Assembly (NCBI GenBank): GCA_023137195.1
Contig: JAGLPV010000024.1
Coordinates: forward strand, 1-60,040
DNA from: Candidatus Aenigmatarchaeota archaeon
Lineage (GTDB): Archaea; EX4484-52
Direction: 5' to 3'
DNA: 60,040 nucleotides
In this document: positions 2,004 through 35,527 of the stretch, piece by piece
Numbering within the stretch: the stretch's first letter is position 1
How the letters are laid out: every line of letters starts with the position of its first letter
Made by a program: the position numbers and the translations under genes
Notes under the pieces: generated by a model
What the model was told of the DNA's origin: nothing
What the model saw: the letters and a program-made list of their open reading frames with translations, nothing else
The model's database searches: none

Positions 2004-2837
2004 ATGGAAAAAACATTAGTTATGGTTAATGGCTTATCGCCAAATGCAGGGAAAATGGCATATAAAGTTGCTGAACATGTTCAGGCTAGTTCTGATATGG
2101 AATTGCTTCCTTTTTCATTGACTGGTTCAAATGTTGAAGCAGACAGGATGCAGGTTGGTGATCTGGAAATTAAATTGGTGAAGCCGGAAGACAGGAAGGA
2201 GTTTATTGAAATGGTTTCTGATCAATCATTTATTTCTGTGGATTATACTCATCCAAATGCTGTAAATGAAAATGCAGAATTTTATTGCAGTAATCGTCTT
2301 CCTTTTGTTATGGGAACAACAGGGGGAGACAGGGATGTATTGGAAAAAACAGTTGTTGATTCAGACAATGTGGCTGTTATTGCTCCGAATATGGCGAAGC
2401 AAATTGTCGCATTTCAGGCAATGTTGGAATATGCGGCAAATACATTTCCTGATGCATTCAAAGGATATACATTGGAGATAGCAGAAAGTCATCAAAACGG
2501 AAAAGCTGACACAAGCGGTACTGCCAAAGCAATGATTGGTTATTTTAATCAATTAGGGCTTCCCTTTACAAAAGACCAGATTAAAATGATCAGGGCTCCG
2601 GATGAACAGTTGGAGATGGGAATTCCTGAAAATACATTGACTGGTCATGCATGGCACACTTATACATTGAAATCAAAAGAAGGAGATGTCTTATTTGGGT
2701 TTACTCATAATGTGAATGGAAGGGATATTTACGCGGCAGGAACATTGGACGGGGTCAGGTTTTTGATCGGCAAGCTTGGTGAAAAAGGTAAAGTCTATTC
2801 CATGATGGATGTTTTGAAAGGCGCAACCACAGATTAA
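2004..2837 (+). CDS. dapB: Dihydrodipicolinate reductase-like protein (DapB family)
   Basis: MEKTLVMVNGLSPNAGKMAYKVAEHV N-terminus, ESHQNGKADTSGTAKAMIGYF (SGTA) motif; ATG at 2004 preferred over the ORF start at 1860. Confidence 0.65.
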   Translation: MEKTLVMVNGLSPNAGKMAYKVAEHVQASSDMELLPFSLTGSNVEADRMQVGDLEIKLVKPEDRKEFIEMVSDQSFISVDYTHPNAVNENAEFYCSNRLPFVMGTTGGDRDVLEKTVVDSDNVAVIAPNMAKQIVAFQAMLEYAANTFPDAFKGYTLEIAESHQNGKADTSGTAKAMIGYFNQLGLPFTKDQIKMIRAPDEQLEMGIPENTLTGHAWHTYTLKSKEGDVLFGFTHNVNGRDIYAAGTLDGVRFLIGKLGEKGKVYSMMDVLKGATTD

Positions 2838-2920
2838 TCCACAGAACCCACGGGAACTGATTTAATCCATGAGATTCTTGGCGATAGCACAGATGCTGAT
2901 TTAATAGTTTGTCTTGTGGA
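2837..2920. repeat. Copy of dispersed intergenic element bounded by ATCCACA...TGTGGAT (degenerate end)
   Basis: Starts ATCCACAG at 2837, ends TGTGGA at 2915-2920; internal AATCCATGAGATTCTTG...CACAGATG resembles the copy at 34909. Confidence 0.5.
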
Positions 2921-2970
2921 AAATACAGACGAGGAAAAAAAGTATATAAAGATTCTTGCCATGAAATATT

Positions 2971-3264
2971 ATGAGAAAACAAATGATTAAAACAAGCAGA
3001 GAAGAGAATATTTCGATGTATCCACGATTGGAAGAAGTTTTAATGATTGAATCCTTTATCCGGGAACACAATGGAGAATATAAAAAACAGGAATTGATTG
3101 ATAATCTGCCTGAAGAGACAAATCAGGAAATTTTTGATGCAATAATTGATAATCTTCTTGATGAACACAAAATTTCAATAGATGCAGAGGGCAAAATAGG
3201 GTGGATATATGATCCAGCCGGTGTAAAAAAATATCTCAAAAAAAATGAATTGTCATGGAGATGA
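2971..3264 (+). CDS. Small protein, probable antitoxin-like partner
   Basis: 97 aa, predicted helical; overlaps the start of the RelE/ParE-like ORF at 3255. Confidence 0.5.
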   Translation: MRKQMIKTSREENISMYPRLEEVLMIESFIREHNGEYKKQELIDNLPEETNQEIFDAIIDNLLDEHKISIDAEGKIGWIYDPAGVKKYLKKNELSWR

Positions 3265-3593
3265 AATCGCAAATAGTATTTTGCCAAGAAAAACTGAAAA
3301 ATGCATTTTTATCGCTTAAAAATTCTAAACTCCATGAAGAAAGGCAAATATATCGATGGCTTGAGCGGGCTTTTGTGGATTTAGAAGAAAATGCCTTTTG
3401 TGGCATTCAGATTCCAAAAAAACTGATTCCGGCATCTTATATCCAAAAATACGAGATAGACAATTTATGGAAATATAATTTGCCAAATGCATGGAGATTA
3501 ACGTATTCTATAAAGGGAAGTGAAATAAAAGTCGTCAGTATCGTTGTCGAATGGATGAGCCACAAGGAATACGAAAAAAGATTTGGTTATTGA
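3255..3593 (+). CDS. RelE/ParE-like toxin-fold protein (archaeal type)
   Basis: NLWKYNLPNAWRLTYSIKGSEIKVVSIVVEWMSHKEYEKRFGY C-terminal signature typical of archaeal RelE-like proteins. Confidence 0.6.
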   Translation: MEMKSQIVFCQEKLKNAFLSLKNSKLHEERQIYRWLERAFVDLEENAFCGIQIPKKLIPASYIQKYEIDNLWKYNLPNAWRLTYSIKGSEIKVVSIVVEWMSHKEYEKRFGY

Positions 3594-3676
3594 TGTTATA
3601 GATACTCTTGTGGATTTCAACGGTTCTGCGACCCATGGATGTTATTATTATATAAATGTAAATAGGTTTAATTAGT

Positions 3677-5669: not shown

Positions 5670-6365
5670 TTAATTATGTTTTATAGGGTCATTTACAGTA
5701 TCATTTACAGTATCATTTACAGTATCATCCAAAACATAATATCCTGTTTTTGCCGAGCCTTCAAATCGGACAATCTTCTTTGATTTTAAGTCCAACAAAT
5801 CTCTTTTAGCAGTAATTATTGGTATGTTAACCAGAGCAATATATTCCTTTGTGGTTATTTTACCCTTTTCCGCAATATATCTAATTGCTTTCTTCTGCCT
5901 TTCATTTAATTCGTGTTTTTCTTCAATTACATCCATGGAAATTGTCCTGACCTGTGATTTAAAAATAACTTTTGTTTCAATATCGCCTAAATTATACATT
6001 GGTTTCTCATTGCCATTCATACGGCAAAGTTCATTTTCAAGATAAATTCCTGAACCATATCTTTCAATAAGACCAATATCATACATATAGTTGGACAGAA
6101 TAGAATTAACTGGTTTATGAATGGGTTCTTCAGGGCTTACGCCTTCCGGAAATGAACCGGGACTTACAATCTCAATGCGCTCATCATATATAAAAACTCT
6201 TACATCTGCCATACTTTGATAGTCTCTATGAATCAGCCCGTTGATTATTGCCTCTCTTAATGCCTTTAGAGGATATTCATATTTGTCTATTCTCTGGAAC
6301 TTATCTGTTCTTAATCCCATATATCTTATGTTTCTTTTGATGAAATTTTCAGCTTCCAGAACCAT
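5670..6365 (-). pseudogene. 5'-truncated AlbA_2/HATPase_c_4-type ATP-binding transcriptional regulator (C-terminal half)
   Basis: LREAIINGLIHRDYQSMADVRVFIYDERIEIVSPG...ERYGSGI and wHTH match the C-terminal part of the family (compare 20266-21612). Family-like residues (DCDGTLWN) continue in frame 5' of the ATG and then hit a TAG; the N-terminal AlbA_2 half is absent. VNDT x3 tail. Confidence 0.6.
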
Positions 6366-20265: not shown

Positions 20266-21612
20266 ATGGATGGGAGAATAAAGCAGTTGCTTGAAGAAGG
20301 AGAAGGACAGTTTGTTGAATTCAAGGAAAATATTGACAAGTCCCTGGCAAAGGAAATTGTTGCTTTTGCCAATGCAACGGGCGGAAAAATATACCTTGGG
20401 ATAGATGATAAAAATATTTTGAAAGGAATTGAAGTGACTAACAGGTTAAAATCACAGGTAACAGATATTGCGAAAAACTGCGACCCGAAAATACCTGTGT
20501 CTCTTGGGAAAATAGAAAATTTACTTATCATAACCGTTTTGGAAAGCGTGAACAAACCGCATCAATGCAAAGAAGGTTTTCATTTGCGGCTCGGGGCAAA
20601 TTCCCAGAAATTAACAAGGGATGAAATCATCAAATTCTGCATCAGGGAAAACAAAATAAGGTTTGATGAGCAGATTTGCAAAAATTTTGATTTTGCGGAT
20701 TTTGATGACGAAAAATTTGAATATTACCTGAAACTTGCGCGCATTTCAAATACACTTGACAAAAAAGAGTTGTTGAGAAATATTCGTGCTTTAACTGTCG
20801 AGGGAATGACCAATGCAGGTGTTTTGTTTTTCGCAAAAGAGCCATACAAATATATAATGACTTCAAGGATAAGATGCGTGCTTTTCAAGGGGAATGAAAG
20901 AGTCAGAATTCTGGATAAAAAAGAAGTTGATAAAGGAATTATCGGCAATATTGAATATGCTGTGAACTATCTGGATGAGCATGTTCCTGTAAGGTTTGAA
21001 ATTAAAGGCCTTTACAGGAAAGAGTTTCCGCAGTTTCCGCAGGATGCGTATAGGGAAGCAATTGTCAATGCTGTAATTCATAGGGATTATTTTGAAAATG
21101 GAGAAGTTGCAGTTGAAAAATCCCGGAATTTTATTTATATCAACAACCCGGGCGGGGTTGTTTCTTCGCTGTCAAAAAAGGATTTTGGAACACTAAGTTG
21201 GCCAAGAAACAGGTTGCTTGCTGATTTGCTTTCAAGAACGTATCTTATGGAAAAGGCAGGAACTGGAATCAGGAGGATAAAAGATGCGTCTTTAGAGAAT
21301 AAAAATCTTGTAGAATTTAGGGACAGGGGAACTTATTTTTTCGCTGTATTTGAAAATAAGGAAAGTCCTGATGTTTCTAAAGAAAGTTCCCAGAAAACTG
21401 TGGAGAAAACTGTGGAGAAAACTGTGGAGAAAATAATCAATGTTATAAAAGAAAATCCAAAAGTCACAGTCAAGGAACTTGTTGCAAGAACCGGTCTTTC
21501 AAGAAGAGGTGTTGAATGGAACATCTTAAAGCTAAAAGAGAAAGGTTTATTAAAAAGAATAGGACCGGATAAAGGAGGATATTGGAAAATAATTATGGAG
21601 GAGAATAAATAA
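20266..21612 (+). CDS. AlbA_2 (Schlafen-like) + HATPase_c_4 + wHTH ATP-binding regulator, full length
   Basis: EGEGQFVEFKENIDKSLAKEIVAFANATGGKIYLGIDD; EAIVNAVIHRDYFENG; MEKAGTGIRRIKDA; TVEK tandem repeats then wHTH. Confidence 0.85.
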   Translation: MDGRIKQLLEEGEGQFVEFKENIDKSLAKEIVAFANATGGKIYLGIDDKNILKGIEVTNRLKSQVTDIAKNCDPKIPVSLGKIENLLIITVLESVNKPHQCKEGFHLRLGANSQKLTRDEIIKFCIRENKIRFDEQICKNFDFADFDDEKFEYYLKLARISNTLDKKELLRNIRALTVEGMTNAGVLFFAKEPYKYIMTSRIRCVLFKGNERVRILDKKEVDKGIIGNIEYAVNYLDEHVPVRFEIKGLYRKEFPQFPQDAYREAIVNAVIHRDYFENGEVAVEKSRNFIYINNPGGVVSSLSKKDFGTLSWPRNRLLADLLSRTYLMEKAGTGIRRIKDASLENKNLVEFRDRGTYFFAVFENKESPDVSKESSQKTVEKTVEKTVEKIINVIKENPKVTVKELVARTGLSRRGVEWNILKLKEKGLLKRIGPDKGGYWKIIMEENK

Positions 21613-28829: not shown

Positions 28830-28858
28830 GCCCACAAAAGAAAAAGAAAGTGATTTTA

Positions 28859-28927
28859 ATCCACAGAAAGAAAGAAAATAACCTCCTTTTTCCACGCTTC
28901 CTGTGTCTTCCGTGCGTTCTTGTGGAT
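28859..28927. repeat. Copy of dispersed intergenic element bounded by ATCCACA...TGTGGAT
   Basis: ATCCACAG at 28859 and TGTGGAT at 28921-28927; internal CTTCCTGTGTCTTCCGTG shared with 31397 copy. Confidence 0.65.
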
Positions 28928-28958
28928 AAGTTTAATAAATTAACTCCATTGTTTGGTT

Positions 28959-31386: not shown

Positions 31387-31396
31387 GAATTTTTTA

Positions 31397-31607
31397 ATCC
31401 ACAGATGCGAGAATGCAGGAATGCGAGAAAATCTCCATGATTTTCTGCACATCTGTTCGATACAGATGACTCAAAGATTTTCCGTACATCGGTCAAAGAC
31501 CGATGACTCAAAGATTTTCTGCATATTCAATTTCATTGAATAACGCACGGGAAAGTGATTTATTTTCTTCTTGCATGTTCCTGTGTCTTCCGTGTCTTCC
31601 TGTGGAT
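31397..31607. repeat. Copy of dispersed intergenic element (ATCCACAG...CTGTGGAT) containing a 37-nt periodic hairpin array
   Basis: ATCCACAG at 31397-31404 and CTGTGGAT at 31600-31607; hairpins at 31450-31468, 31487-31505, 31524-31542 separated by 18-nt near-identical spacers. Confidence 0.75.
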
Positions 31608-31608
31608 G

Positions 31609-34874: not shown

Positions 34875-34908
34875 ACTAGCATATATATGAATTCATTGAA
34901 TTGTTGAA

Positions 34909-34985
34909 ATCCACAAGATTCTTGCAATCAACACAAGATGACTCAGTTTTTAATTCATATTTTAATCTCGTGGAAATCTGTGGAT
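34909..34985. repeat. Copy of dispersed intergenic element bounded by ATCCACA...TGTGGAT
   Basis: ATCCACA at 34909-34915; CTGTGGAT at 34978-34985; internal GATGACTCA shared with the 31397 copy. Confidence 0.6.
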
Positions 34986-35002
34986 TAAGTCGGTTCCGTG
35001 GA

Positions 35003-35527
35003 TTAGAAATTGGTCACTGGCTTTTTTCTTAAGAATAAACCTATGCTTGCAAGAGTCATGAAAAATGGTATTGCCATTGTTGAAAATTCAGGAATGCCTC
35101 CTGTTGCCTGTGCAATTACGCTTGCATCTTCCCAGTCGCCGACATCATTTGTCTTTACATAATACATGTATTTTGCTCCTGCTGTTGCATTGGATCCAAG
35201 CATTATTTTGATAATTGCCTCTCCATTGGTGTCTGTGGTTGTCTCGTTATTGCCTGTCTCGTTGAATACGACAGAAACCTCGCTACATGGATTTGATAAA
35301 AAATCATCACATATTCCATTGCTATTTGTGTCTTTGCAGATTATATTTTTGATTAGCAATGGCTTTACTTGATGTGGAGTTACCGTAGCAGTTGTATATC
35401 CTGTATTCCCTGGCATTATAGTAATGTCCATCGGATTGACTTCAATATCAAGAGAATCTGCGAACACGACCATACTGCTCAAAAGCATAAGACTTATTGC
35501 TGTAATTATTATTTTGTTTTTTTCCAT
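35003..35527 (-). CDS. Secreted protein with PEF-CTERM-type sorting signal
   Basis: Signal peptide; C-terminal GGIPEFSTMAIPFFMTLASIGLFLRKKPVTNF (PEF + TM + basic tail). Confidence 0.8.
   Translation of the reverse strand: MEKNKIIITAISLMLLSSMVVFADSLDIEVNPMDITIMPGNTGYTTATVTPHQVKPLLIKNIICKDTNSNGICDDFLSNPCSEVSVVFNETGNNETTTDTNGEAIIKIMLGSNATAGAKYMYYVKTNDVGDWEDASVIAQATGGIPEFSTMAIPFFMTLASIGLFLRKKPVTNF

Follow-up and report, generated by a model that had tools for sequence, protein, structure and literature searches.

A run of palindromes with a 37-nt period lies in an intergenic stretch of an archaeal contig (one that also encodes enolase, an aspartyl-type tRNA synthetase and other genes), and it raises the question of what the repeating object is and how it came to be repeated. 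The initial annotation of the 60,040 nt of DNA analysed here in full (the window) placed the array at 31432–31542 and described it as a linear alternation of a constant linker with a variable, self-complementary cassette. The three 19-nt hairpins were recovered letter for letter at the positions it gave (CATCTGTTCGATACAGATG at 31450–31468, CATCGGTCAAAGACCGATG at 31487–31505 and TATTCAATTTCATTGAATA at 31524–31542), the two spacers ACTCAAAGATTTTCCGTA and ACTCAAAGATTTTCTGCA do disagree at 2 of their 18 positions, and the period of 37 nt was found again by TRF. The feature itself is longer, as the array is one fragment of a 213-nt palindromic element which spans 31396–31608 on the forward strand and has terminal inverted repeats. 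This element is probably one copy of a genus-restricted, non-coding, MITE-like palindromic family that has been built by the nested insertion of a 46-nt unit.

The element at 31396–31608 and its parts

The element takes up nearly the whole of a 222-nt convergent gap (31387–31608) between a T2SSF-domain (FlaJ/TadC-like) gene and the enolase gene, with AATCCACAG at its start and CTGTGGAT at its end. It folds well when compared with dinucleotide shuffles, with z-scores of -6.7 and -3.7 for the forward- and reverse-strand RNA of the gap 31387–31608 and of -5.1 for DNA. A chance origin, which the initial annotation had kept in view, does not fit the local density of palindromes: the window has 11 perfect 19-mer hairpins with stems of at least 7 bp where a first-order Markov model predicts 6.9, and none of 60 simulated windows held three such hairpins within 115 nt.

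What repeats is a double hairpin of 46 nt: a first hairpin, which we call H1 (TGCRRGAAAATC-loop-GATTTTCYGCA), leads straight into a second one of 19 nt, whose 8-bp stem closes a 3-nt loop (8-3-8). One intact unit is found at 31423–31468 (covariance model, 65.5 bits, E 4.5e-11), with its H1 at 31423–31449 and CATCTGTTCGATACAGATG as its 19-nt hairpin. Positions 31432–31449, which had been taken for a further spacer, are in fact the loop and right arm of this intact fourth hairpin (AGAAAATC-TCCAT-GATTTTCT, about 31426–31447). To the left are two 8-nt stubs, ATGCGAGA at 31405–31412 and ATGCAGGA at 31413–31420, which we read as the left H1 arms of an outermost and a middle unit, respectively; to the right, spacer 1 (31469–31486) would be the right remnant of the middle unit's H1 and precedes the 19-nt hairpin of that unit (CATCGGTCAAAGACCGATG), and spacer 2 (31506–31523) would be the corresponding remnant of the outer unit and precedes TATTCAATTTCATTGAATA. 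The remaining backbone (ACGCACGGGAAAGTGATT...) and the right inverted-repeat arm occupy 31543–31608 and end 1 nt from the enolase stop codon.

Two other members of the family are present in the window, a short element without a hairpin unit at 28856–28929, and one at 34905–35003 with the ends ATCCACAAG ... TCTGTGGATT and a type-B interior, which lies in another convergent gap. We also note perfect 12-nt tandem repeats found by TRF at 5689–5728 (TCATTTACAGTA, 3.3 copies) and 21392–21433 (AGAAAACTGTGG, 3.5 copies).

A repeat family of one archaeal genus

A sequence search of the draft genome (G000; 1.42 Mb in 57 contigs, 85% complete) returned matches at 72 places at E<=10, of which many are strong. 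The elements are about 75–350 nt long, intergenic, non-coding and dispersed over at least 40 loci, and in many copies AATCCACAG...CTGTGGAT are found at both ends, so that the family has the terminal inverted repeats of MITEs as well as being short, non-coding, multicopy and dispersed. A covariance model of the 46-nt unit identified 30 units in G000, six in the congener G003 and two in another congener, G001, at E<0.001, and none at this threshold in the other 31 genomes searched for the order, including the congener G002; it should be noted that the model was built from G000 units and recovery from this genome was expected, while the G001 and G003 matches are independent. G003 is the MAG B49_G9, labelled Candidatus Nanohalarchaeota, with two loci that match QMVB01 records letter for letter. 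Among these genomes, the repeat family is confined to a single genus of tiny archaea. The two adjacent hairpins recur together as one unit in the 30 model matches, and the unit presumably moves as such. In two G001 loci (L075 and L079), H1-like hairpins (GCGGGAAAATTTCCATGATTTTCTGC) are followed by GTCTCCAACTGACATTGTAGAT in place of the 19-nt hairpin, which is perhaps another partner.

The variable parts are palindromes belonging to a few classes which recur across the genome, without the pattern of identical repeats and unrelated spacers, and the view that this is not a CRISPR layout therefore stands. No match was found in searches for a plasmid or phage origin, the single match in a pattern scan of viral contigs looks like chance, as do four of the six matches in a scan of genome contigs, and no Rfam 15 family reached its gathering score in the window.

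The pairing of the 19-nt stems is clearly maintained. The compensated changes first noticed in the window are borne out, as six of the eight stem pairs show changes on both sides, with 94–99% of cells paired, and the covariation score was not equalled in any of 500 shuffles, which ignore relatedness. The initial annotation had named the absence of further copies and of covariation as the finding that would reduce the array to a chance decay product, but further copies and covarying stems were both found. It had also taken the compensated pairs to imply selection on RNA structure or on the binding of a protein to cruciforms; the maintained pairing stands, but compensated pairs alone are no proof of such selection, because hairpin-templated repair would also keep the stems perfect, and the pairing is compatible with selection and repair alike.

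Nested insertion, tandem expansion and repair

The linkers of the presumed linear array look like right arms cut off from a second hairpin, and an arrangement of nested insertions fits them best. The stubs resemble a left H1 arm severed behind RGA and the spacers resemble the right part of H1 (ACTC-AAA-GATTTTCYGCA), and when the outermost stub is paired with the last remnant, and so on inward, three units can be read with CATCTG inside CATCGG inside TATTCA; nested pairing of stubs and remnants gives no mismatches, and tandem pairing gives two. We suggest that a unit enters in a fixed orientation between RGA(A) and A, at a site in the element's own backbone (CACAGGA^ACGCACGG) or on the left arm of an H1 already present, so that with each nested step the H1 of the preceding unit would be split in its left arm. 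Each such event would leave an 8-nt left stub and an 18–20-nt right remnant, and repeated events would therefore produce the 37-nt period. Copies with one level (L021), two levels (L012, L013, L014 and L016), three (the window element) and four (L011) coexist in the genome. Four G000 loci (L018, L036, L106 and L107) have a second type of inner element (AATCCACAGATTAACACAGATTTCCACGAGATT...), which follows GTGATTT within the main backbone's loop, and here there is nesting at the backbone level too.

Insertion is the best reading of these arrangements, and the chief rival to be weighed is a BOX-like tandem expansion, in which the internal 37-nt module of a MITE varies by slippage or unequal recombination, with stubs and hairpins changing separately and whole elements spreading afterwards. 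BOX elements do so with boxB (PMC3049150), every hairpin is bordered by direct repeats, and there are copies of the kind that this process would leave, including L009 with three hairpins and two stubs, as after a tandem duplication, and G003 copies with three stubs and one hairpin (three of the seven copies in this genome have excess stubs). The counts argue against separate change, as the number of stubs equals the number of hairpins in 26 of 30 elements where 13.4 would be expected (0 of 200000 permutations as high), and the match persists after collapse to 11 founder types (P = 0.005), although both the counts and the collapse were made by hand after the idea had formed and these P values are guides only; many of the 30 elements may be copies of a few founders. 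The linker is also tied to the hairpin that comes next, with the TTTTCCG remnant signature found in 7 of 8 cases of the CATCGG/TATTGG class and 3 of 27 of the other classes (P = 1.3e-4), whether H1 is intact or split. Furthermore, in L010, L017 and L020 a CATCTG unit sits inside an unrelated hairpin (GCGAAAA^AAG...GCTTTTTTGCA), and the uninterrupted GCGAAAA-AAG host is present in L018, L029 and L033. Four elements did not match in the hand count. Of the exceptions, L027, L032 and L033b each have a surplus stub, as expected from deletion between GATTTTCTGCA repeats, and L023 looks like a decayed two-level copy. The nested remnants are mostly ACTC where AATC is expected, a shared feature that tandem expansion would account for; the junction is therefore not exactly clean, and under nested insertion this would mean either few independent events or an insertion that alters two bases. 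Tandem expansion is accordingly an unlikely account of the whole, and nesting and later slippage may both operate.

A second rival concerns the stems alone, and holds that hairpin-templated repair by template switching keeps them perfect with no structural selection, so that the compensated changes would be a mutational by-product. In its favour, the TTCAA class has the closing pairs, outer and inner, in all four combinations, for which double changes must have occurred repeatedly, and one-sided intermediates are few. We give it very little credence as the full explanation, for it leaves the dispersal of the family, its nested layout and its presence or absence at orthologous loci unexplained, though it may act alongside nested insertion: pairing could be kept because mobility needs the fold, because repair across the hairpins re-perfects the stems, or both.

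Gene ends, mobility and comparable repeats

The elements favour the ends of genes. Of 23 gaps that hold elements, 14 lie between convergent genes, whereas among the gaps of the window this is true of 6 in 52 (mechanical ORF calls), and convergent-gap enrichment has been interpreted as a sign of parasitic repeats (PMC3049150). An element end is no more than 1 nt from a stop codon in 20 of about 38 ORF-associated cases, and at many G000 loci, as at 31607, 35003 and 2837 in the window, the end overlaps or abuts a stop codon (-1 to +1 nt), a spacing far commoner than any other; this proximity may be due to a TAA-like target, to compact gaps or to a function. A domesticated 3'-end element, with hairpins that protect the mRNA end, mark a processing site or aid termination and with stems paired by selection on the RNA, would be in keeping with this position just downstream of genes, with the convergent gaps and with the covarying stems. 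We think it improbable, as the two strands fold about equally well, the content of the copies turns over, most genes have no element, and the element is missing at orthologous gene ends in congeners. B49_G9 has none at the orthologous gene end in two comparisons (L019/L054 and L033/L053); G001 lacks the window element after both flaJ and eno, and G003 lacks it after flaJ. Variation in cassette number, which the initial annotation had proposed to look for among strains, is found between species, where one pair of elements at the same place has three cassettes in one and a single cassette in the other (L015/L040), and another pair has one unit in common and a different interior (L021/L042). A search for the orthologous flaJ–eno gap in congeners found none, and because the gene order differs there is no clean empty site for the window element. 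The elements are most likely selfish, non-autonomous mobile DNA tolerated at the 3' ends of genes.

Elsewhere in the window, element-like ends (AATCCACAGAACCCACGGGAACTGATTTAATCC ... CTTGTGGATTTCAACGGTTCTG...CCATGGAT, 2836–3640) bracket two small ORFs directly at the stop codon of a DapB-like gene, one with a weak winged-helix hint (2971–3264) and one with no Pfam match (3255–3593), and these are possibly cargo carried by an element.

The most likely interpretation is of a non-autonomous MITE-like family in which the double-hairpin unit inserts into its own kind. The 85% complete draft contains no match to Y1_Tnp (PF01797), although the controls were positive, which speaks against a RAYT-driven REP system, and none to RVT_1, which speaks against copying by an encoded reverse transcriptase. 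Flanks inspected by eye show no consistent target-site duplication, and many ends follow TA or TAA. Two recombinases of the phage-integrase (tyrosine) family are encoded in the genome (C1:6913-7392 and C45:31442-31927), and an enzyme acting in trans might recognise folded DNA or an RNA copy. A more specific and quite tentative proposal is that of a self-targeting hairpin parasite, a non-coding 46-nt double hairpin that inserts into its own H1, always in one orientation and always in the left arm, and grows by nested, countable steps, perhaps when folded ssDNA or RNA is recognised by a host recombinase.

Parts of this architecture have counterparts elsewhere. The BOX elements of Streptococcus pneumoniae (boxA-boxBn-boxC, PMC3049150) are also small and extragenic, with terminal inverted repeats, foldable modules that vary in number, convergent-gap enrichment and insertion into one another; by description they are set apart by their tandem boxB, where boxA and boxC ends surround a tandem series, whereas the modules here are nested by the best parse, with paired stubs and remnants, a double-hairpin module and an unrelated host. 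The double-hairpin elements of fungal and sponge mitochondria (PMC2800124) are likewise one- or two-hairpin units scattered through intergenic DNA; their types differ by complementary substitutions, they vary between close relatives and no mobiliser is named, but the present family has an archaeal chromosome, a MITE-like backbone, ordered self-nesting and a fixed insertion point. The pithovirus M1/M2 inverted repeats (PMC10664404) share two clustered palindromic types, a MITE-like character and the lack of an encoded transposase, and differ in being larger (about 140 nt), in a giant virus and with a putative TA duplication, and in having no insertion of a hairpin into a hairpin arm. REP/REPIN sequences with RAYT transposases (PMC3116915, PMC3733652) are dispersed extragenic palindromes, often in structured groups, in contrast to a 46-nt double-hairpin unit in a draft genome without Y1_Tnp, and BrickBuilt of Porphyromonas gingivalis (PMC4596501) is described as a MITE with an internal minisatellite or short repeats and, as far as that description goes, not nested double hairpins. 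A limited literature search found no description of ordered self-nesting in an archaeal chromosome and no match to the letters of the repeat.

Tiny hairpin repeats are widespread and how they multiply is mostly obscure. In this genome stubs, remnants and copies with one to four levels record the order of events, and nesting can therefore be tested against slippage from the letters of the sequence. The family adds a structured, genus-limited repeat to a DPANN lineage with small genomes and makes the growth of hairpin repeats unusually easy to follow; if the self-targeting hairpin parasite proves true, it would represent a site-specific, structure-guided mode of transposition that we have not found described in Archaea.
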